Shown: piece after piece, positions 47,587 through 57,861 of the stretch | Position numbering within the stretch: position 1 is the stretch's first letter | Layout: every line of letters begins with the position of its first letter | NCBI GenBank assembly: GCA_009702755.1 | Contig: WLHL01000003.1 | Span: 1-64,000 of the forward strand | Source: Actinomycetota bacterium | Lineage (GTDB): Bacteria > Actinomycetota > Acidimicrobiia > Acidimicrobiales > Ilumatobacteraceae | Length of the DNA stretch: 64,000 nt | Reading direction: 5' to 3' | Notes under the pieces: model-generated | What the model was told of the DNA's origin: nothing | The model's database searches: none | What the model saw: only the letters and a program-made list of their open reading frames with translations | Position numbers and translations under genes: made by a program

Positions 47587-48305
47587 AGCGCATTATGTTG
47601 CAATTGCGCGCCGAACTGATGTTGCTCGCCCGAAATGGTGAACAACTCCTTCTCACGCTGATCATCCCCGTCATCCTGCTGGCGTTCTTTGGATCCGTTG
47701 ATGTGTTGCCCAGTGGTGACACAGAACCATTGAACTTCCTTGTGCCCGGCGTTCTCGCTGTCGCCATCATGAGTACCTCAATGGTGAGCCTCGGAATCGC
47801 CACTGGCTTTGAGCGGTCATATCTCGTTCTCAAACGCCTCGGCGCCACGCCACTGTCGAAATCGCAATTGGTTATCGCGAAAATTCTCTCGGTGTTCGTT
47901 GTTGAACTTTTACAAGCAGCTGTTCTCTTGCCGATTGGTCTTCTCCTCGGATGGAATCCTGCGGGCAACATATGGCCACTCGCAATCGCAGCGGTCTTCC
48001 TCGGTACAGCATCATTTGCTGGAGTCGGGCTCATCCTCGCAGGTCGACTACGCGCTGAGATCAATCTGGCAGCTCAAAACGGTCTGTATTTGCTGCTTCT
48101 TTTGCTCGGTGGAATGATCATCCCACGCGATTCACTTCCCGGATTCCTCAGCTCTGCAGCATCAGTGTTGCCATCAACCGGACTGGCCGACCTCTTACGT
48201 TCCACTCTGAATGGCAGTGGTCCGCTCTTGCAACCATTCATCGTGCTTGCGGTGTGGGGCACATTGGCCCCTGCACTTGCCGCGAAACGTTTCCGCTGGA
48301 GTTAG
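47583..48305 (+). CDS. ABC-2 type transporter permease
   Basis: Multi-TM; coupled to the ATPase gene; LNFLVPGVLAVAIMSTSMVSLGIATGFERSYLVLKRLGATPLSKSQL. Confidence 0.88.
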   Translation: MKRIMLQLRAELMLLARNGEQLLLTLIIPVILLAFFGSVDVLPSGDTEPLNFLVPGVLAVAIMSTSMVSLGIATGFERSYLVLKRLGATPLSKSQLVIAKILSVFVVELLQAAVLLPIGLLLGWNPAGNIWPLAIAAVFLGTASFAGVGLILAGRLRAEINLAAQNGLYLLLLLLGGMIIPRDSLPGFLSSAASVLPSTGLADLLRSTLNGSGPLLQPFIVLAVWGTLAPALAAKRFRWS

Positions 48306-49237
48306 TTCGTCGGCTCACTCGCTGGACGAGTGCGATCAAACGCTGCTTCCACTTCTGAATACATCAGTGGCGGTTCTGTACCGACGACTTCTGCATCAGG
48401 TATCTGATCAGCATGGTCATACGACTGTTCTTGAAAGAACGAACCCATAAAGCGTTTGAAGAAGATGTAGATGATGATTCCCCACATGAGGGATGATCCA
48501 CCAAGCTTCATGATTCCACCAGCAGCTTGTTGGTCACTCAGAACGCTGATGCCACCGACGCGCACAATCGTGTCGTAGTGCTTGTACACAGCGCCTTCGG
48601 CAAAGGTCAGCCAACCTGCAGGAATCGTTGGAATTAAAGAGGTGCCGAAGAGATAAATCATCTTCGCACCATCAGACATTCGCCATTCGCGAATTGGTCC
48701 ACACACCGGAGTCCAGAACATCAACGACGTAAAGACCACTAGAACGTGCAACGAGTAATGCAACGGGCCACCGTCGGCACTTCGATTCACAATCTGGGGA
48801 ATATGCGTAATCATGAGTGTGCAGTTGTACACAACGACTCCGACCACCGGACGCGTAAGAACTCTGACCACCTTGTACGTGAGCCCCTTGCCAATGAGCA
48901 AACGGAAAAGCCATTCCGGTGTTGCCAACAAGGCCAACGGCGGAATGATGTACGTAAGAATCATGTGCTGCACCATGTGCATTGAGTACAGATACTCTTC
49001 CGCCAAGTCGTGCATGGGCCAGTCACTCGCCAACCACAACAACGCAATCATCACAATGAATGTGGTCTTTTGCCGGCGACTAATGACCTTGCCTTCAGGG
49101 GCGACCTTGGGCCCCAGAACGCGCACGGTGTACACAAAGGCAGCAATAAGCCCGATGATCAGTACCCAGACTTCTGGGTGGAACTGGTACCGCCAGGGGT
49201 CCGGGTTTGTTGTGGGTTCTATAGCGGCGAAGAACAC
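48302..49237 (-). CDS. ctaG: Cytochrome c oxidase assembly protein, caa3 CtaG family
   Basis: DWPMHDLAEEYLYSMHMVQHMILTYIIPPLALLATPEWL multi-TM. Confidence 0.88.
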   Translation of the reverse strand: MFFAAIEPTTNPDPWRYQFHPEVWVLIIGLIAAFVYTVRVLGPKVAPEGKVISRRQKTTFIVMIALLWLASDWPMHDLAEEYLYSMHMVQHMILTYIIPPLALLATPEWLFRLLIGKGLTYKVVRVLTRPVVGVVVYNCTLMITHIPQIVNRSADGGPLHYSLHVLVVFTSLMFWTPVCGPIREWRMSDGAKMIYLFGTSLIPTIPAGWLTFAEGAVYKHYDTIVRVGGISVLSDQQAAGGIMKLGGSSLMWGIIIYIFFKRFMGSFFQEQSYDHADQIPDAEVVGTEPPLMYSEVEAAFDRTRPASEPTN

Positions 49238-49255: not shown

Positions 49256-49561
49256 CTAGGAGATGAAGAACTTAAACGTTGCGAGTGCAGTGATGTACAC
49301 AAACAACGCAAGGCCCAAGCCTGTGTAAAACAAGAATGTGAAAATCTTGCTATCAAACTTCAAGTGCATGAAGTACGACACGACCATCACAAACTTGACC
49401 ACCATCATGATCATCAATGAAGGCATGAAGAGCGGCCCGAAGTCAACGTAATACGTAGAGACTTCAAGCGCAGTAATCGCCGCCAAGATGATCGCAATCT
49501 TGATGTACCCGGCATCTGTCATACCGTGTTCGTGTTCGTGCTGTTCAGTAGATGTACTCAT
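49256..49561 (-). CDS. Cytochrome c oxidase subunit IV (caa3/cyoD type)
   Basis: ITALEVSTYYVDFG...MIMMVVKFVMVVSYFMHLKFDSKIFTFLF. Confidence 0.85.
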   Translation of the reverse strand: MSTSTEQHEHEHGMTDAGYIKIAIILAAITALEVSTYYVDFGPLFMPSLMIMMVVKFVMVVSYFMHLKFDSKIFTFLFYTGLGLALFVYITALATFKFFIS

Positions 49562-49575
49562 GACGTCCCTCGCTA

Positions 49576-50217
49576 TCAGGATGGAATCAGGTAAACGAGA
49601 GTGAAGATAATGATCCACACCACGTCAACGAAGTGCCAATAAAGACCTACAAGTTCAACAACCTCAGCCTTAGTGCCAGTGATCTTGTTCTTGCGAATAA
49701 TGCCCACGGTGGAAAGCAACATGAGCACGCCAACCGACACGTGAATTCCGTGGAATCCAGTCAATGTGTAGAAGCTCGAGCCAAAGAGGCTGGTGGAGAA
49801 TCCGAGACCTTCACGAATGAAAGCGGTGAATTCGTAGACCTGGCCGCCAACAAAGGTCGCACCCAACACTGCGGTGATGGTGAGCCACAAGTTTGTACGG
49901 CTGTCATCGCCACGCTGAGCTGACGATACGGCCAACACCATTGTGAGAGAAGACATCAACAAAACAAAACTGCTGATCGACGTGAAAGGAATGTCGAAGA
50001 TTGCCATCGGATGTGGTCCGTCGGAGACACGACCTCGATACAACATGTAGGTGGAGATGAGGCCACCAAAGAGAAGGCATTCTGAGCCCAAGAACAGCCA
50101 CATCGCCAACTTGTTGTTGGTGAGGCCGGTGGACGTTTCGTGACCGTGTTCTGACGCGTGGTCAGCTGTGTGTGTTGCTGTCTCAGCCAAGGGGAGCAAT
50201 CTCCTTCGTGTTGCCAT
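49576..50217 (-). CDS. ctaE: Cytochrome c oxidase subunit III
   Basis: LAMWLFLGSECLLFGGLISTYMLYRGR...FYTLTGFHGIHVSVGV...VGLYWHFVDVVWIIIFTLVYL. Confidence 0.95.
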   Translation of the reverse strand: MATRRRLLPLAETATHTADHASEHGHETSTGLTNNKLAMWLFLGSECLLFGGLISTYMLYRGRVSDGPHPMAIFDIPFTSISSFVLLMSSLTMVLAVSSAQRGDDSRTNLWLTITAVLGATFVGGQVYEFTAFIREGLGFSTSLFGSSFYTLTGFHGIHVSVGVLMLLSTVGIIRKNKITGTKAEVVELVGLYWHFVDVVWIIIFTLVYLIPS

Positions 50218-52168
50218 CATTGTCTGATGGCTCAAAATCAATCTCTTCAGCAACGGATGGCTCGAGGACCCAACCGTATGCAGAGAACAATGTGATGGCG
50301 AAACCAATGACCATCATTGGAATGCCGTACACGACTCCTAAGCCGAGAAGACCAACGCCAATCGAGAGAAGAATTGGCCAGTACGACGGCGATGGCAAGT
50401 GGATGTGTGCATCCGCTGCATCTGCCTCTGCACGTACCAAATCTTCGCCTTCGGCAACCTTCTTCATTGTGTGTGTTGCTGTGTCTTCCTCGTACTTACG
50501 GTGGAAGAACTCATCCAAGTGATGAACAACAGGAATGCGATCGAAGTTGTGAGCCTTTGGCGGGCTGGTGGTCAACCACTCAAGGGTACGAGCGTCCCAT
50601 GGGTCAAGCGGCGCTTGCTGCTTGCTGCGAGCTGTAATCACCACGTTGATGAGGAAGAACAGAATGCCCACCGCGAGGATGAATGAACCAATCGAAGCAA
50701 TAAGGTTCCAGAATCCGAGGTTGAAGAAACCTTCACCTGCACGAGCTTCTGTCCACACGTACATACGACGTGGCTGGCCCTGAAGACCAAGAATGTGCAT
50801 GGGGCCGAATGTCATGTTCATACCAATGACCATGAACCAGAAGTTCCAAGCACCAAGTTTTTCGTTCAACATCTTGCCGAACACTTTTGGCCACCAGTAG
50901 TAGAAACCGGAGAACAGACCGAAGACCATTCCGCCGAACAACACGTAATGGAAGTGAGCAACGATGTAGTACGTATCTGTTTGCTGTGTGTCAGATGGTG
51001 CAACAGAGTGAGTAACACCTGACAAGCCACCGATGGTGAACAGCACCACGAGGCCAATCGCAAAGTTCATTGCGGTGGTGTACCAAATCTTGCCGCCCCA
51101 CATTGTGAGCAACCAGTTGAAGATTTTCACGCCGGTTGGAATCGCAATCGCCATTGTTGCGACGGAGAACACCGCCACTGATACAGGCCCGAGACCTGAG
51201 GCGAACATGTGGTGAGCCCACACGCCGAATCCGACGAGTCCGATCGAAGCCCCGGAGAACACTACGAATGGGTATCCAAAGAGAGGCTTACGAGCAAACG
51301 TTGGGAGTACTTCAGAGATGATGCCGAAGGCCGGCAGAATCAACACGTACACCTCTGGGTGTCCGAAGATCCAGAACAAGTGCTGCCACAACAGCGGGTC
51401 AGCGCCTTGGGAAACATCGAAGAACGTTGCTCCATACGATCGTTGCAGCATCAGAAGAACGAGTGCCACGGTGATCACAGGAAGTGAGAAGACCAAGAGG
51501 AACTGCACCACGAGGATCATCCACGTGAACACTGGCATCTTCATAAGGCTCATACCTGGAGCGCGCATGTTGAGAACTGTGACAATCAGGTTGATGGAGC
51601 CAAGCAAAGACGCCACACCAGCAATCTGCAAACCGATAACCCAAAAGTCGACACCATGTGATGGCGAGAAGATCGGACCGGAGTTTGGTGCATACATGAA
51701 CCAACCACCATCAGCAGCTCCGCCAAGGAACCACGAAGCGTTGAGTACAAGACCACCGATGATGAGAAGCCACAATGACAATGCGTTGATTCGTGGGAAC
51801 GCAACGTCGCGCGCACCAATCTGCAATGGCAAGAAGTAGTTCGCAAACGCACCAGCCATTGGCATGGCGAACAAGAACACCATGGTGGTGGCGTGCATGG
51901 TGAACATTTGGTTGTACTTGTCAGCACTAAGAATCTGGCCGTCTGGCATCGCAAGCTGCAAACGAATGAGCAGTGCTTCCACGCCACCAATGATGAAGAA
52001 CACCATGGCGACAACGCCGTACATGATGCCGATCTTCTTATGGTCAACGGTGAAGAGCCACTCGCGCCAGCCCTTTGTAGCAACCGGGCGCTTCACAGCA
52101 CCAAGAGTCTGTTGTGGAGTCACCACTACTGGAGTAGTGCCTGTTCCGGGTCGTTCGATGATCGCCAT
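50183..52168 (-). CDS. ctaD: Cytochrome c oxidase subunit I (canonical)
   Basis: All ligand motifs present: FTMHATTMVF, FGHPEVYVLILPAFGIISEVLP, WAHHMFASG, AHFHYVLFGG. Confidence 0.97.
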   Translation of the reverse strand: MAIIERPGTGTTPVVVTPQQTLGAVKRPVATKGWREWLFTVDHKKIGIMYGVVAMVFFIIGGVEALLIRLQLAMPDGQILSADKYNQMFTMHATTMVFLFAMPMAGAFANYFLPLQIGARDVAFPRINALSLWLLIIGGLVLNASWFLGGAADGGWFMYAPNSGPIFSPSHGVDFWVIGLQIAGVASLLGSINLIVTVLNMRAPGMSLMKMPVFTWMILVVQFLLVFSLPVITVALVLLMLQRSYGATFFDVSQGADPLLWQHLFWIFGHPEVYVLILPAFGIISEVLPTFARKPLFGYPFVVFSGASIGLVGFGVWAHHMFASGLGPVSVAVFSVATMAIAIPTGVKIFNWLLTMWGGKIWYTTAMNFAIGLVVLFTIGGLSGVTHSVAPSDTQQTDTYYIVAHFHYVLFGGMVFGLFSGFYYWWPKVFGKMLNEKLGAWNFWFMVIGMNMTFGPMHILGLQGQPRRMYVWTEARAGEGFFNLGFWNLIASIGSFILAVGILFFLINVVITARSKQQAPLDPWDARTLEWLTTSPPKAHNFDRIPVVHHLDEFFHRKYEEDTATHTMKKVAEGEDLVRAEADAADAHIHLPSPSYWPILLSIGVGLLGLGVVYGIPMMVIGFAITLFSAYGWVLEPSVAEEIDFEPSDNDGNTKEIAPLG

Positions 52169-52180
52169 GTCGTTCTCCGA

Positions 52181-53437
52181 TTACTTCAGCGTCAATAGGT
52201 AGGCAACGAGCTTGTCAATGTCGTCCTCGGTGAGGCCGAGATTCGGCATACCGCGGTACAAACCATTGGTTTTTTCAAGTTTTGCTGGGTCGGCATACAT
52301 CGGCTTCATTGCCGGTGCATTGCGCAACCACGCACGCAAGTTCTTCTCATTTAGGCAATCCTCAGAGACACCGGCGAGATACTTCGCGCCAAATTCTTCT
52401 GACTTTGCATCCCACACATCTGCACGGCACTTCTGATTCACCAGGTCGAACATGGCGCCAGCAAATGTGTTGCGAGTCATGAGTGTCGTCAAGTTCGGTG
52501 CAGCACCGGAATAAACGTTCTCGTCAGGAGCAGAGATGATTGCTTTGCCATTGGCATCTTTAATGCCGTTGACTTGGTGACAGCGTGAGCACTGGTTAAT
52601 GAAGGTTGTTTCGCCTTCCTTTGCCAATGTTCCTTCTGCAGGGGGCGTATACGCCTTCTGCTGGTTAGCCACCCACTTTGCGAAGTCTTCCTTCGACAAT
52701 GCAATGGCTTCCATGCGCATGTTTGCGTGGGAGAGACCACAGAACTCGGTGCACTGGCCGGCATAAATGCCTGGCTGATCAGCTTGCATACGAAGCAAGT
52801 GAATACGACCAGGAACTGCGTCCTTCTTACCGTTCAGTGCTGGAATCCAGAATGAGTGAATAACGTCGCGGCTTGTCTCGCGCAACAAAACATTGGTGTC
52901 TTCAGGAATGACCAACTGACCCGACGTGATAATCGGCTGCGTAATGCCCTGATCTGCTTGAGCGGGATAGTCATATTCCCACCACCACTGCTGACCAGTG
53001 ACATTGATAATCATTTCGGTGTCTTGCGTTTCTGCAAGATCCATGATTGTGCGGAAAGTGAAAACACCGACAACGGTCAAGATCAAAGCAGGAACAATCG
53101 TGAGAACGATTTCGACGATGGGCTTGCCGTGCGACTGAGCAGGAATCGCCTGACCCTTGTCGCGGAACTTCACGAAGATGTACCCAGCGAGTGCCGAGAC
53201 AAGAACACCGACGATGCCGGCGATGGGGAACACCAGTTTGTCGAGTGAGTAAATCATCTGGGCGTTATCGCCCTTTGGCTTCCAGGTGTCTTGCGGTGCG
53301 TTCTGAGCACAACCTGCCAACACGACAGCGCCAGCGACGCCTGCGACGGTGGTCGAAATTCGACGTGTCAAACTTTTCACGGGGCTCACGGTATCCATTG
53401 CCTTCTCCGTTGTCTTGGGCTTATTGGTGTGGCTCAC
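52181..53437 (-). CDS. ctaC: Cytochrome c oxidase subunit II with fused C-terminal cytochrome c domain (caa3 type)
   Basis: CuA motif YAGQCTEFCGLSHANM; heme c motif NQCSRCHQ; lipobox-like VLAGCAQ. Confidence 0.95.
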   Translation of the reverse strand: MSHTNKPKTTEKAMDTVSPVKSLTRRISTTVAGVAGAVVLAGCAQNAPQDTWKPKGDNAQMIYSLDKLVFPIAGIVGVLVSALAGYIFVKFRDKGQAIPAQSHGKPIVEIVLTIVPALILTVVGVFTFRTIMDLAETQDTEMIINVTGQQWWWEYDYPAQADQGITQPIITSGQLVIPEDTNVLLRETSRDVIHSFWIPALNGKKDAVPGRIHLLRMQADQPGIYAGQCTEFCGLSHANMRMEAIALSKEDFAKWVANQQKAYTPPAEGTLAKEGETTFINQCSRCHQVNGIKDANGKAIISAPDENVYSGAAPNLTTLMTRNTFAGAMFDLVNQKCRADVWDAKSEEFGAKYLAGVSEDCLNEKNLRAWLRNAPAMKPMYADPAKLEKTNGLYRGMPNLGLTEDDIDKLVAYLLTLK

Positions 53438-54558
53438 GGCACCACCACCTTGATCTCGCCTGTCGCACCTGGCACCGTCAACGTGTACGGAGCCTCAGGG
53501 TTCGAAGGCTTGGGAATAGTGACAGTCAAAGCTTGCTCTTCGTTCTTGCCGGTCAGCTGAGTACAGGTTCCGACCTTTTCCATCACGTCAGTGGTTCCCA
53601 CCTTGGCTTCACCCAAGTTGGCAACCAAGCGATATTCCTCTGAATCAAGATTGCGGAACAAAATCGTTGTGGAGTTCGAGCGTGGAATTGTGATGGCCTG
53701 AACGTCACGCTTCAGTCCGACTTCTTGAGCACGAATCTTGCCGTCTTCAACGAAAATTGTTGCAACGACTCCGGAACGCAACGACACGGAGCCATTGGCT
53801 TCGTGGTCGTAATGCTCGCCGGCTTCTTTGCCGCACTCACGATGGGAAATTGAGTACGGATCTTCCTTCGCATACTTCACAAGTTCTTTGCGCTCACCGT
53901 TCAGCGCGCTCGCGATGCCGGCAACAGCAAGGACGAGAACGCCCACAACCGAGATGATTGCTGTGGACTTGCCACGTAATGCTGGCTTTGCTGCGAGAAG
54001 AATTCCCGTAACGAAAATCAGCGCAGACACAATAATGAAGATGATTGATGCTTCGTCCTTAGAGACAGTGAGCATGATGCGTGAGAACAAGAACGCAACA
54101 ACACCGAGCACCACAGCAGCAATGCCTGGGTAATCAAGTGCGCCAATTGCGCGATGACGAACAAATGAGTTGAACTCGGTATCAGCAGATGCCTTTTCAG
54201 CCCAGTCGTCAATGACCCATTCCACGGCGCCACCGACAAGGACAGCAAGACCGAGAACAAAAACAATCTCGTTTGTTGCAATTCCCAAAAGTGTCAACGC
54301 ACCACCAAGTGCAAAAACGATTGGCCAAAAAGAAGGAGCCGTTGTTTCCGTGTTTGCCTCTACTGCTTCAGCAACAGAGTCTGTGTCGCCGTCAGAAGTG
54401 AAGATCGAGAAACCAGCGATGAGTGCAGCGCTAATAAACAAACCAAATAACGCATATGCACCAAGGTCTGAAGGATTAACGAGGAAGCAGTACAAGACTG
54501 CGGACACAAGACCAAGGCCTGTGAGGCCGAGGAAATATTTTGAGCCTGGAGTAATCAT
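53434..54558 (-). CDS. Membrane protein (actinobacterial cox subunit IV-like helices) with C-terminal cupredoxin-like domain lacking obvious Cu ligands
   Basis: Repeated TM blocks such as FWPIVFALGGALTLLGIATNEIVFVLGLAVLVGGAVEWVIDDWAE; C-terminal beta-rich ITIPRSNSTTILFRNLDSEEYRLVANLG...YTLTVPGATGEIKVVVP; ATGA overlap with ctaC. Confidence 0.6.
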   Translation of the reverse strand: MITPGSKYFLGLTGLGLVSAVLYCFLVNPSDLGAYALFGLFISAALIAGFSIFTSDGDTDSVAEAVEANTETTAPSFWPIVFALGGALTLLGIATNEIVFVLGLAVLVGGAVEWVIDDWAEKASADTEFNSFVRHRAIGALDYPGIAAVVLGVVAFLFSRIMLTVSKDEASIIFIIVSALIFVTGILLAAKPALRGKSTAIISVVGVLVLAVAGIASALNGERKELVKYAKEDPYSISHRECGKEAGEHYDHEANGSVSLRSGVVATIFVEDGKIRAQEVGLKRDVQAITIPRSNSTTILFRNLDSEEYRLVANLGEAKVGTTDVMEKVGTCTQLTGKNEEQALTVTIPKPSNPEAPYTLTVPGATGEIKVVVP

Positions 54559-54564
54559 CTCGAC

Positions 54565-55170
54565 CTACTTCTGCACGTACACGAAGAACCACACTGCGGT
54601 GAATGCCGCAGTGAGGAAGTACCAATACAACGCATTTGCTGAAATGACCTGCAGGTCATCATCGCGTCCGCCGACGGAACGGAAGAAAGCAACTGCAGTG
54701 AACGCCATGCCGCTCACAATCAACGCCAACATGGTGCCGGTGATTGCGTAGAACATGGCACCAAATGCGCCTTCTGCCACAACAACTTCCATCTGGGCGT
54801 AGATGGCAACTTGGGCATTCACAATTGCGATACCAATGCCAAACAAAATCACAAGCGCAAGAGAGCGGTGCTGACCATCGCGGCGCTTTGCGGCATACAC
54901 AGCCCACTGAGCCATCAATGCTGCAAATGGGAATGTTGCAAACATTGTGTTAGCAGCTACTTCAGGAACGATGATGTCCTTCGACATCCAGTCCTTGATG
55001 ATCTTCAAACCATCAGCAGATTCACGAGTCGGTGCACCCGCGCGGAACTTCATCCACATTGCGAGCATGCCGGCGATCAACATTCCTGCTGCAGCAGCGA
55101 CTAACGCTGTGCCGACAAGAACCTGACGACGTGATGTCTGTGAGGGTGCGGAAGGCAATGCCAATGTCAT
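54565..55170 (-). CDS. Divergent heme-copper oxidase subunit III-like protein
   Basis: FGAMFYAITGTMLALIVSG and ALYWYFLTAAFTAVWFFVYV align with CtaE FYTLTGFHGIHVSVG and GLYWHFVDVVWIIIFTLVYL. Confidence 0.7.
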   Translation of the reverse strand: MTLALPSAPSQTSRRQVLVGTALVAAAAGMLIAGMLAMWMKFRAGAPTRESADGLKIIKDWMSKDIIVPEVAANTMFATFPFAALMAQWAVYAAKRRDGQHRSLALVILFGIGIAIVNAQVAIYAQMEVVVAEGAFGAMFYAITGTMLALIVSGMAFTAVAFFRSVGGRDDDLQVISANALYWYFLTAAFTAVWFFVYVQK

Positions 55171-56777
55171 GCCGGTACCTCCTGAGAAGGCTTCGCGTCG
55201 AGAAGTGGTTCGCTTGAAGAAACCGTTGCGAGTGAAGCGAAGTTGTTTGCTGGTGCTGGTGAAGGAATCGACCACTCAAGTGTGTGTGCATCCCATGGGT
55301 CGTCTTTTGCTCCGGCACCTGCGCGCACTGCTGCGACAAGAAGACCAACGTACGCGAGGACGACAAGTGCAATCAGTGCAGAGCCTGCTGCGGCAAGAAC
55401 GTTCCACAGTGCAACGGGACCGTCGTAATCAAAACCAGTGACAATGTTTGCTGGCTGATCAGCAAAGCCGGCGATGTACAGCGGAAGCGATGAAAGAACA
55501 GTTCCGATCAAGCCAAGACCAGCAAGGCCAAGAACTTTTTTGTCGTCAAGAACAACGCCCCACAACTTTGGTGCCCAGTGCGTCAATGCACCAAGTGCAA
55601 CCAACACGCCGCCGTATGCGAGATACAGCGTGACGCCTTCAGCGAATGACGTTCCCTGCAAATCTGCGTCCTTGATGTTCGCGAGGAATGAACCAGTAGC
55701 GCCAGCAAGAATCATGAGCACTCCAAGAATGGAGAACGCAAAAGCTGCATTCACTGTTGGCTTGCCTTCCTTGAAGGAAAGCATTGCGACTGCAAGAGCA
55801 ACGAGCATTCCGAGAAGCGGCAGACCGTTTGTCAGAAGGAACAGCACAGTGCTGGACAACTTGTCGCCGTTTGTGCCGGAGAGATCAAGAACATGATTGG
55901 TCTGTGTGACCGCGCCGATGGTTGCAGTGGAAATCAATGCAATGCCGCCGAGCAAGACGGGGCGCAATGGCTGGCGAACACGTGCTGCCACAGGAGCAAC
56001 TTCCGCAAGAACTCCGAGCGCCATGATGACGAACACGAAGGTGTGTGGGGCTGAGTAGATCCAACCAAGCCATGTCTCCATGCCCTTGCCGCCACCGAAT
56101 GCGTTCTGTGCGTAGGTGTGGTCTACATAGAGATAGATGATGTTGCTCATTGCGACCGGCACAGTGAGCAATGTTGCGATTGATGCGATGAGGGCAGACC
56201 ACGAGAACGCAGGAATCATGTCGAGTGACATGCCTAGAGCGCGTGATGTGAGAATTGTGGTTGCAACAGAAATGCTTGCTGACAAAAGGCCCACAAGAAG
56301 AAGTCCAACACCCATCAGGAAGAGGTCGCCCATGTCGGCGTTACCACCATTAGGGCCGCCGTTAGCAATGAGTGAAATTAGGACGAGACCGGATCCGAAG
56401 AACCATGCCCAGAATCCGTATTGCGCCAAGCGCGGGAACGCGATTGCTTTTGAACCGACCTGCATGGGAACCACTGCAATTGCAATGCCAATAAAGAGAG
56501 GTGCCAGTAATCCGAGAACAAGGACGTGACGGAACAACCATGAAAGCTGAAGCGCAGCATCTCCATCAAAGATCTGCATGCTGGATGGGCTCATTCTCTC
56601 CAAGCCAAAGATGATGCCGATGACGGCAACCTCTATTGCGTGAACAAGAGACCAACCGATGAACAGTCTTCCGATCTTTTTATGATCGCTACTGGTCATC
56701 CATTGGCCAACTGAGGCGACAACGGACGAGCCAGAGCTCTTGGTCGATGCGCCGACATGAGTGTCGTTGGTGGTCAT
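55167..56777 (-). CDS. Divergent (apparently ligand-less) heme-copper oxidase subunit I-like protein
   Basis: TSSDHKKIGRLFIGWSLVHAIEVAVIG, VVPMQVGSKAIAFPRLAQYGFW, LGVLAEVAPV, DDPWDAHTLEWSIPSPAPANNF match CoxI framework, but ligand motifs are replaced. Confidence 0.82.
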   Translation of the reverse strand: MTTNDTHVGASTKSSGSSVVASVGQWMTSSDHKKIGRLFIGWSLVHAIEVAVIGIIFGLERMSPSSMQIFDGDAALQLSWLFRHVLVLGLLAPLFIGIAIAVVPMQVGSKAIAFPRLAQYGFWAWFFGSGLVLISLIANGGPNGGNADMGDLFLMGVGLLLVGLLSASISVATTILTSRALGMSLDMIPAFSWSALIASIATLLTVPVAMSNIIYLYVDHTYAQNAFGGGKGMETWLGWIYSAPHTFVFVIMALGVLAEVAPVAARVRQPLRPVLLGGIALISTATIGAVTQTNHVLDLSGTNGDKLSSTVLFLLTNGLPLLGMLVALAVAMLSFKEGKPTVNAAFAFSILGVLMILAGATGSFLANIKDADLQGTSFAEGVTLYLAYGGVLVALGALTHWAPKLWGVVLDDKKVLGLAGLGLIGTVLSSLPLYIAGFADQPANIVTGFDYDGPVALWNVLAAAGSALIALVVLAYVGLLVAAVRAGAGAKDDPWDAHTLEWSIPSPAPANNFASLATVSSSEPLLDAKPSQEVPA

Positions 56778-56922
56778 TTTCGGATGGTCTCCTGGTGACA
56801 CCCCATGGCCCTTGCGAACTTCCGGGGTGATTTCGCCTAGATGTAACGCTCTAACACTAACCACCGCCCCCACTCGGTGGGTAAATCCTTGGAAGGCTTT
56901 TAGTTAGTGCAATTGCGCATCA

Positions 56923-57861
56923 TTAACGAACAAAGACATCGACGGTCAGGGCGACGAAGAGGACCGTGATGTACGAAATCGAGAACGAAAACAGCTTCAT
57001 CGATGCCGCTGGACTATCGGATCGACCTAGTGCGATTGTGCCCCACAAGAAGCCCAGGCCAAGCACTGCGGCCGAGATGCCGTAAACCCAGCCCATGTCT
57101 CCCACCGGGATAATCACCAAGCTGGAAATAGTTAGTGCGATTGTGTACAGAACCATGGATCGGATGACCTTCTCATGGCTTTCCACCACGGGAAGCATGG
57201 GAACTCCGGCCGCCGTGTAGTCCTCGCGGTGCTTAATGGCCAATGCCCAGAAGTGTGGAGGGGTCCACAAGAAGATGAGCAAGAACAGAAGCCAAGGGGT
57301 CCAGGACAACGAATTGGTGACCGCAGCCCAGCCGACCAATACGGGAACAGCCCCAGCGGCGCCGCCGATAACGATGTTCTGCTTACTCGTGCGCTTCAGC
57401 CACAAGGAATAGACGAACACGTAGAAGAACGTGGCCGACAATGCCAAACATGCCGACAAGAAGTTGGCACCAGCCCACAAGACCGCAAAAGCGAGAATTT
57501 CAAGCGAAATAGCAAAAACAAGGGCGTTTCTTGGGGCGATCAGGCCAGTCACCAAAGGACGAGTCTTCGTGCGCTCCATCAAGGCATCAATGTCCCTATC
57601 GATGTACATGTTGATTGCATTCGCGCCGCCGGCAGCCAACGAGCCGCCAATCAACGTAATCAGAATGAGACTGAATGCGGGCCAACCGCCTTCTGCCACC
57701 ACCATCGTTGGAACCGTGGTGATAAGCAACAACTCAATGATTCGGGGCTTTGTGAGAGCAATGTAGCCACCAACAACGGATCGAGGAGCACGACCAGAAT
57801 TGTGTCCGCGGCTAGTCAGGCGCGAGGGGACGACGGGACGAACATTGAGGGGCACAGTCAT
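56923..57861 (-). CDS. ctaB: Protoheme IX farnesyltransferase
   Basis: GGYIALTKPRIIELLLITTVPTM, NMYIDRDIDALMERTKTRPLVTG, WTPPHFWALAIKHREDYTAAGVPMLP. Confidence 0.96.
   Translation of the reverse strand: MTVPLNVRPVVPSRLTSRGHNSGRAPRSVVGGYIALTKPRIIELLLITTVPTMVVAEGGWPAFSLILITLIGGSLAAGGANAINMYIDRDIDALMERTKTRPLVTGLIAPRNALVFAISLEILAFAVLWAGANFLSACLALSATFFYVFVYSLWLKRTSKQNIVIGGAAGAVPVLVGWAAVTNSLSWTPWLLFLLIFLWTPPHFWALAIKHREDYTAAGVPMLPVVESHEKVIRSMVLYTIALTISSLVIIPVGDMGWVYGISAAVLGLGFLWGTIALGRSDSPAASMKLFSFSISYITVLFVALTVDVFVR

Follow-up and report, generated by a model that had tools for sequence, protein, structure and literature searches.

In cytochrome bd, the cofactor-poor homolog CydB is an obligate subunit and serves as the structural partner of the catalytic CydA. 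Other described systems close to the locus presented here include: (i) the actinobacterial aa3 oxidase of CtaC-CtaD-CtaE-CtaF (PF00115, PF00510 and PF12270), (ii) a membrane cupredoxin encoded at the end of canonical CoxB-CtaD-CtaE-CoxIV-CtaG clusters, and (iii) a 'deranged' COX1-like protein of Acetobacter, which is reported to be without all metal-binding residues, is clustered with ctaB and is thought to be structural (PMC10715153).

The locus compared with these systems lies in a 64,000-nucleotide stretch of DNA (the window) from a freshwater actinobacterium of the Ilumatobacteraceae (contig WLHL01000003.1; source genome of 1.84 Mb, 85% complete). As read from the sequence alone, a degenerate module, I'-III'-IV', opens with a CoxI paralog (I') and lies directly upstream of the caa3 genes CoxB-CtaD-CtaE-CoxIV-CtaG. 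I' and the Acetobacter protein are both COX1 homologs without metal ligands that reside beside ctaB (PMC10715153). The Acetobacter protein is, however, alphaproteobacterial and reported as a single protein (PMC10715153), whereas the window type comprises three genes, adjoins a caa3 oxidase with its full ligand set, is order-wide and has relatives in which heme- and copper-site-bearing intermediates survive. The difference in phylum suggests that the two are convergent, an inference made without comparison of the sequences. The module shares subunits I, III and IV with the actinobacterial aa3 oxidase, but is without subunit II and the catalytic ligands, and its IV' carries a fused 2-TM cupredoxin unit. 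The membrane cupredoxin of canonical clusters and the second half of IV' are homologs; by contrast, the former is encoded by a separate gene and keeps the type-1 Cu ligands in most loci examined, while the window IV' does not. CydA and CydB resemble the arrangement proposed below for I' but have an unrelated fold. Thus, while the idea of a deranged COX1 is already published (PMC10715153), the order-wide, multi-subunit and operon-coupled form with intermediates is new. In open-licence PMC text, no description was found of the module in Acidimicrobiia or Ilumatobacter, and no paper was found on an order-wide I'-III'-IV' beside an active oxidase or on the heme/copper-site intermediates.

I' is encoded on the minus strand (55167-56777) by an intact frame of 536 residues that runs from the ATG at 56777 to the stop at 55167. 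The frame is open upstream as far as a GTG at 56873; the start at 56777 is favored because the orthologs likewise begin with MTT. I' meets the requirement for the subunit I fold of the heme-copper oxidase superfamily (PF00115) by homology over the 12-helix domain, with a Pfam COX1 match of 124 bits (E 7e-36, cut-off 34.8) that covers profile positions 1-435 of 436. The CtaD of the window scores 523 bits against the same profile, and I' falls far under every CtaD, QoxB and CyoB equivalog cut-off among the NCBIfam models. These two are the only COX1 genes of the source genome. The AlphaFold2 model of I', built with 37 sequences, has a complete 12-helix oxidase fold (pLDDT 90, pTM 0.91) with a TM-score of ~0.8 to the bo3, aa3 and mitochondrial oxidases. 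With the fold modeled confidently and the ligand positions replaced (see below), the scaffold is complete and the cofactor sites are gone.

Ligand positions were assigned in Paracoccus numbering from a MAFFT alignment of 79 sequences, redone with 134, that included 38 ligand-complete CtaD sequences. The first-pass annotation had described I' as a CoxI paralog without heme and CuB ligands, a 12-TM scaffold devoid of redox centers in an intact frame, and this description is upheld by the alignments, the predicted structure and the conservation of the protein: His is found at none of the six metal-ligand positions of the window I'. The individual replacements it had listed are confirmed at the CuB motif (His276 to Ala and the cross-linking Tyr280 to Phe, with Glu278 also changed to His), at the helix VII pair (His325 to Gln, His326 to Thr) and at helix X (His411 to Val, His413 to Leu). 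In helix II, the ligand His94 is Phe. In the closest relative (L033), one His stands at this column and a separate His two residues on, of which only the second, non-ligand His is kept in the window, in agreement with the earlier remark that the helix II His is two residues out of register. As helix X is without His, a heme held by the His residues of helices II and X is impossible. The D- and K-channel residues Asp124 and Lys354 are both Ala, and the heme-propionate Arg473/474 are Ala/Asn. A shifted register that would restore the His residues was ruled out by the His count and by both MAFFT alignments together with a phmmer alignment of I' to the Bacillus aa3-600 oxidase, which gave the same register. 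I' thus does not satisfy the criteria for a catalytic A-family oxygen reductase (six His, Tyr280 and the D/K channels). Nor does it fit the nitric oxide reductase branch, as no His occupies any heme or CuB/FeB position of I' and no NOR model is among its NCBIfam matches.

The genes of the locus are all on the minus strand. ctaB (56923-57861; over the cut-off of the NCBIfam heme o synthase model) is upstream of I', with a gap of 145 bases. Downstream of I' is III' (54565-55170), a CoxIII-like protein of 201 residues (Pfam COX3, 30 bits, cut-off 23.8), the ATG of which overlaps the I' stop as ATGA. An ortholog of III' adjoins I' in 40 of the 40 loci of the first set. After 6 bases follows IV' (53434-54558), a CoxIV/CtaF-like 7-TM protein of 374 residues with a C-terminal cupredoxin-fold domain. 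The stop of IV' is overlapped, as GTGA, by the GTG start of CoxB (52181-53437), a subunit II with a C-terminal cytochrome c domain (Pfam COX2 and Cytochrom_C). CtaD, the catalytic subunit I (50183-52168; TIGR02891 over cut-off), is 12 bases further on and has the full ligand set. It is followed by the subunit III CtaE (49576-50307; Pfam COX3, E 5e-22), CoxIV (49256-49618; COX4_pro) and the Caa3_CtaG assembly factor (48302-49237; Pfam). CoxB, CtaD, CtaE, CoxIV and CtaG are ordinary-looking, and the overlapping reading frames predict that I'-III'-IV' is translationally coupled to the genes of a working caa3 oxidase. The window CtaD is also extended at its C-terminus by a CoxIV/CtaF-like part (Cyt_c_ox_IV, E 7e-7). 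Elsewhere, the source genome encodes CtaA and, on another contig and directly adjoining nuo genes, a bc-type complex that comprises a b6-like cytochrome b in two frames (262 and 236 residues), a Rieske protein and a cytochrome c; the gene names of this complex were assigned by reading the sequences.

IV' has seven helices, an N-terminal part that resembles CoxIV/CtaF (weak Pfam match to Cyt_c_ox_IV) and a C-terminal beta-sandwich at residues ~264-374. The latter is modeled by AlphaFold2 with pLDDT mostly 80-92 and is placed in the cupredoxin fold by Foldseek matches to amicyanin, auracyanin and Cupredoxin_1 (TMt 0.56-0.66). The type-1 Cu ligand motif His-Cys-His(-Met) is absent from IV' of the window and of the other loci of its family, and the window IV' has no Pfam cupredoxin match. 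Cys242 and Cys332 are nearly invariant in the family alignment and possibly form a disulfide, by inference. The 374-residue protein was considered as a subunit II and ruled out, being instead CoxIV/CtaF-like with a cupredoxin unit. In other actinobacterial classes, the canonical caa3 cluster finishes with a separate gene for a membrane cupredoxin; the homology of this protein to the second half of IV' makes it probable that IV' arose by fusion. In those classes (L134-L145), the ORFs after CtaG encode a membrane-anchored cupredoxin with 2 TM and usually a type-1 Cu motif, with two tandem cupredoxin domains in L140, L143 and L144; this protein probably carries electrons or donates them to the oxidase.

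A class-wide search detected I' in nearly all genomes of the same family and in many families of the order. Wherever contigs reach in the loci examined, the order ctaB, I', III', IV', CoxB, CtaD, CtaE, CoxIV, CtaG is found on one strand, across ~29 families; in one locus (L090), several kilobases of inserted sequence separate IV' from CoxB. The same order is observed in ~36 further named-genome loci, mostly of Ilumatobacteraceae, Acidimicrobiaceae or unclassified actinobacterial MAGs. Matches to IV' were found in 275 of 397 genomes of the order (~8 of them borderline only), and the gene set is present in ~two thirds of the genomes examined in the order, which implies that it is probably a useful scaffold and not junk. 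Some families of the order are without the module and have a classical CtaC-CtaD-CtaF-type oxidase instead. One genome of the window's family (G161; 96% complete, 3.9 Mb) has no match to I' or CtaD and is apparently a family member without the caa3 oxidase. Two records titled as Bifidobacterium breve and Ferrithrix thermotolerans MAGs (L147, L151) carry a cluster closely similar to that of the window's family, and the organism names on these records look wrong.

The 69 I' orthologs, from ~29 families of one order, form a single clade set apart by a branch with SH-aLRT 100. None has the full CuB His triad, each protein keeps at most one of its three His residues, and Asp124 and Lys354 are absent from all. 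By contrast, both low-spin heme ligands, His94 and His413, are kept in 17 loci that are mostly early-branching (families f20, f10, f7, f60, f62, f87, f76, f16, f64 and others), and His411 is kept in nine. IV' has an intact type-1 copper motif (H..C-xx-H..M) in 15 of these 17 heme-pair loci, and all three of the IV' proteins tested from such loci match Pfam Cupredoxin_1. The heme His pair is lost in the crown, window included; in the window's family the cupredoxin domain persists without the ligand motif, while in the other crown loci examined the domain itself is gone. Stages of cofactor loss are thus preserved in living relatives. The heme and copper ligands co-occur strongly (15/2/2/49, Fisher p 4e-11); however, only about three changes of each trait are needed on the tree and independent pairs give no support, so correlated evolution of the two losses is not claimed and their coupling is suggestive, not proven. 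Seven I' proteins (L068, L073, L076, L079, L080, L081 and L084) keep His94, His411 and His413, with Arg at the CuB His276 position (Leu in L073); these proteins might hold two hemes and no copper, and an Arg opposite the high-spin heme would be unusual in the superfamily. The pseudo-oxidase subunit proposed by the first-pass annotation stands, but the degenerate CoxIII-like and CoxIV-like/cupredoxin-fold partners in its operon, its order-wide spread and the intermediate stages in relatives had been overlooked.

A clue to the origin of the module is seen in another order, where the family f28 (L106-L108) has a ligand-complete operon of ctaB/CtaG-CoxB-CtaD-CtaE-CtaF. In two module loci of family f20 (L090, L092), ctaB and I' still flank a divergent CtaG; together, these make the module look like such an operon minus CoxB, which is the origin inferred for I'-III'-IV'.

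I' has evolved much faster than CtaD, and its dN/dS is 0.08-0.26 in six of eight close pairs (0.10 for L052/L101, at dS 0.21). The other two pairs (L055/L057 and L038/L043) have values of about 0.5-0.6, and CoxB is raised in them too (0.34-0.50), which indicates a base-composition bias of the simple dN/dS method; dS between the window and L033 is near saturation. All eight values (0.08-0.56) are well below 1, as expected under purifying selection, and the frame is intact, so that the high divergence and the loss of all catalytic residues do not make I' a pseudogene or an assembly artefact, a scarcely credible reading given a confident fold and intact genes in the same order in dozens of independent genomes. 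Variability was compared per helix, not on the surface of the model structure. Relative to CtaD, it rises 8.5 fold in helix VI and ~5 fold in helices II, VII, VIII and X, the most relaxed helices, which line the cofactors and channels in oxidases. The smallest gains (1.8-2.5 fold) are in helices III, XII, XI and IV, and the loops II-III and IV-V and the C-terminal tail retain most of the CtaD consensus. This pattern would be expected for selection on the fold and outer contacts rather than on a core reaction.

The best explanation, with belief and doubt evenly balanced, is that I'-III'-IV' is what is left of a second A-type oxidase, kept as a structural, non-catalytic subcomplex that associates with the caa3 oxidase. 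A second A-type cytochrome oxidase would have lost subunit II and then its cofactors stepwise, and I'-III'-IV' would have been kept as a membrane subcomplex bound to the caa3 oxidase of the genes that follow directly. Among early-branching relatives, one low-spin heme and a type-1 copper domain would probably still be present, and the module could serve as an electron relay; in the window lineage, it would be a pseudo-protomer or scaffold that stabilizes, organizes or docks the catalytic oxidase. As no redox center is left in the window lineage, the job of the module must be structural, and the overlapping frame of CoxB, the conserved gene order and the retained outer helices favor a structural partner. 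The joint absence of I' and CtaD from G161 was counted on the same side. Physical association of the module with the oxidase and a stabilizing role are inferred, with no binding data, and go beyond what is observed (fold, ligand loss, conservation, gene order, overlapping frames and graded intermediates). Against this reading, I' evolves much faster than CtaD, and many members of the order have no module but run an ordinary aa3 oxidase, which shows that an oxidase does not in general depend on it. More tentatively, and with doubt prevailing, the order may have a heterodimeric oxidase in which a catalytic protomer is paired with an obligate dead I'-III'-IV' that was once a heme/copper relay and is now a scaffold, with extant lineages at every step of the loss of cofactors.

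Gene order and coupling fit a role in assembly as well, and this counts against the structural partner. The main rival, clearly less probable, is a biogenesis platform in which I' (with III' and IV') holds CtaB, heme/copper insertion factors or nascent CtaD while the oxidase is assembled and leaves the mature enzyme. ctaB is immediately upstream in nearly all loci, relatives with heme ligands could carry heme, and the ligand-free COX1-like protein beside the Acetobacter ctaB is proposed to stabilize CtaB (PMC10715153). The Acetobacter role is itself only a proposal, however, and ctaB beside oxidase genes is common in ordinary operons; 145 bases separate I' from ctaB, whereas the frames of IV' and CoxB overlap, and it is not obvious how a cupredoxin-fold domain would be of use to CtaB.

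It is doubtful that the emptied core of I' has acquired a new function, such as a Gln/Glu site for a metal, ligand or ion in place of the CuB ligands. In the family-level alignment of 37 sequences, Gln replaces His325 in 33 and His276 in 29, Glu380 is kept in 29, and conservation at position 325 exceeds the average (entropy 0.6 versus 1.65). By contrast, residue 276 is Ala in the window, positions 94, 411 and 413 exceed the average variability, the core helices are the most relaxed, and the Gln pairs may merely hold the cavity through hydrogen bonds. A new catalytic site was considered and has only this weak evidence of position conservation.

A redox relay from the copper of IV' through the heme of I' to the oxidase has very little to recommend it. 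Early branches (e.g., L068, L079 and L090-L093) keep the heme-a His pair and the Cu site, and the canonical caa3 clusters of other actinobacterial classes end with a gene for a membrane-anchored Cu cupredoxin; however, the association of heme and copper sites rests on only three changes per trait, and both ligand sets are missing from the window proteins, which as read could not act in this way. With no known redox ligand set predicted in I' or the IV' domain, electron transfer through the window module is unlikely in the extreme.

Homology-based annotation can label I'-type genes as cytochrome c oxidase subunit I, with the result that oxidases are overcounted. At least one curated classifier discards sequences without six His (PMC3084760); thus, I'-type genes can fall between the two. 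If the structural reading is true, one of the most thoroughly studied enzyme complexes would have, in I'-III'-IV', a pseudoenzyme counterpart that much of a bacterial order has retained, and the surviving intermediates make it testable how a redox enzyme sheds its cofactors while its scaffold stays useful.
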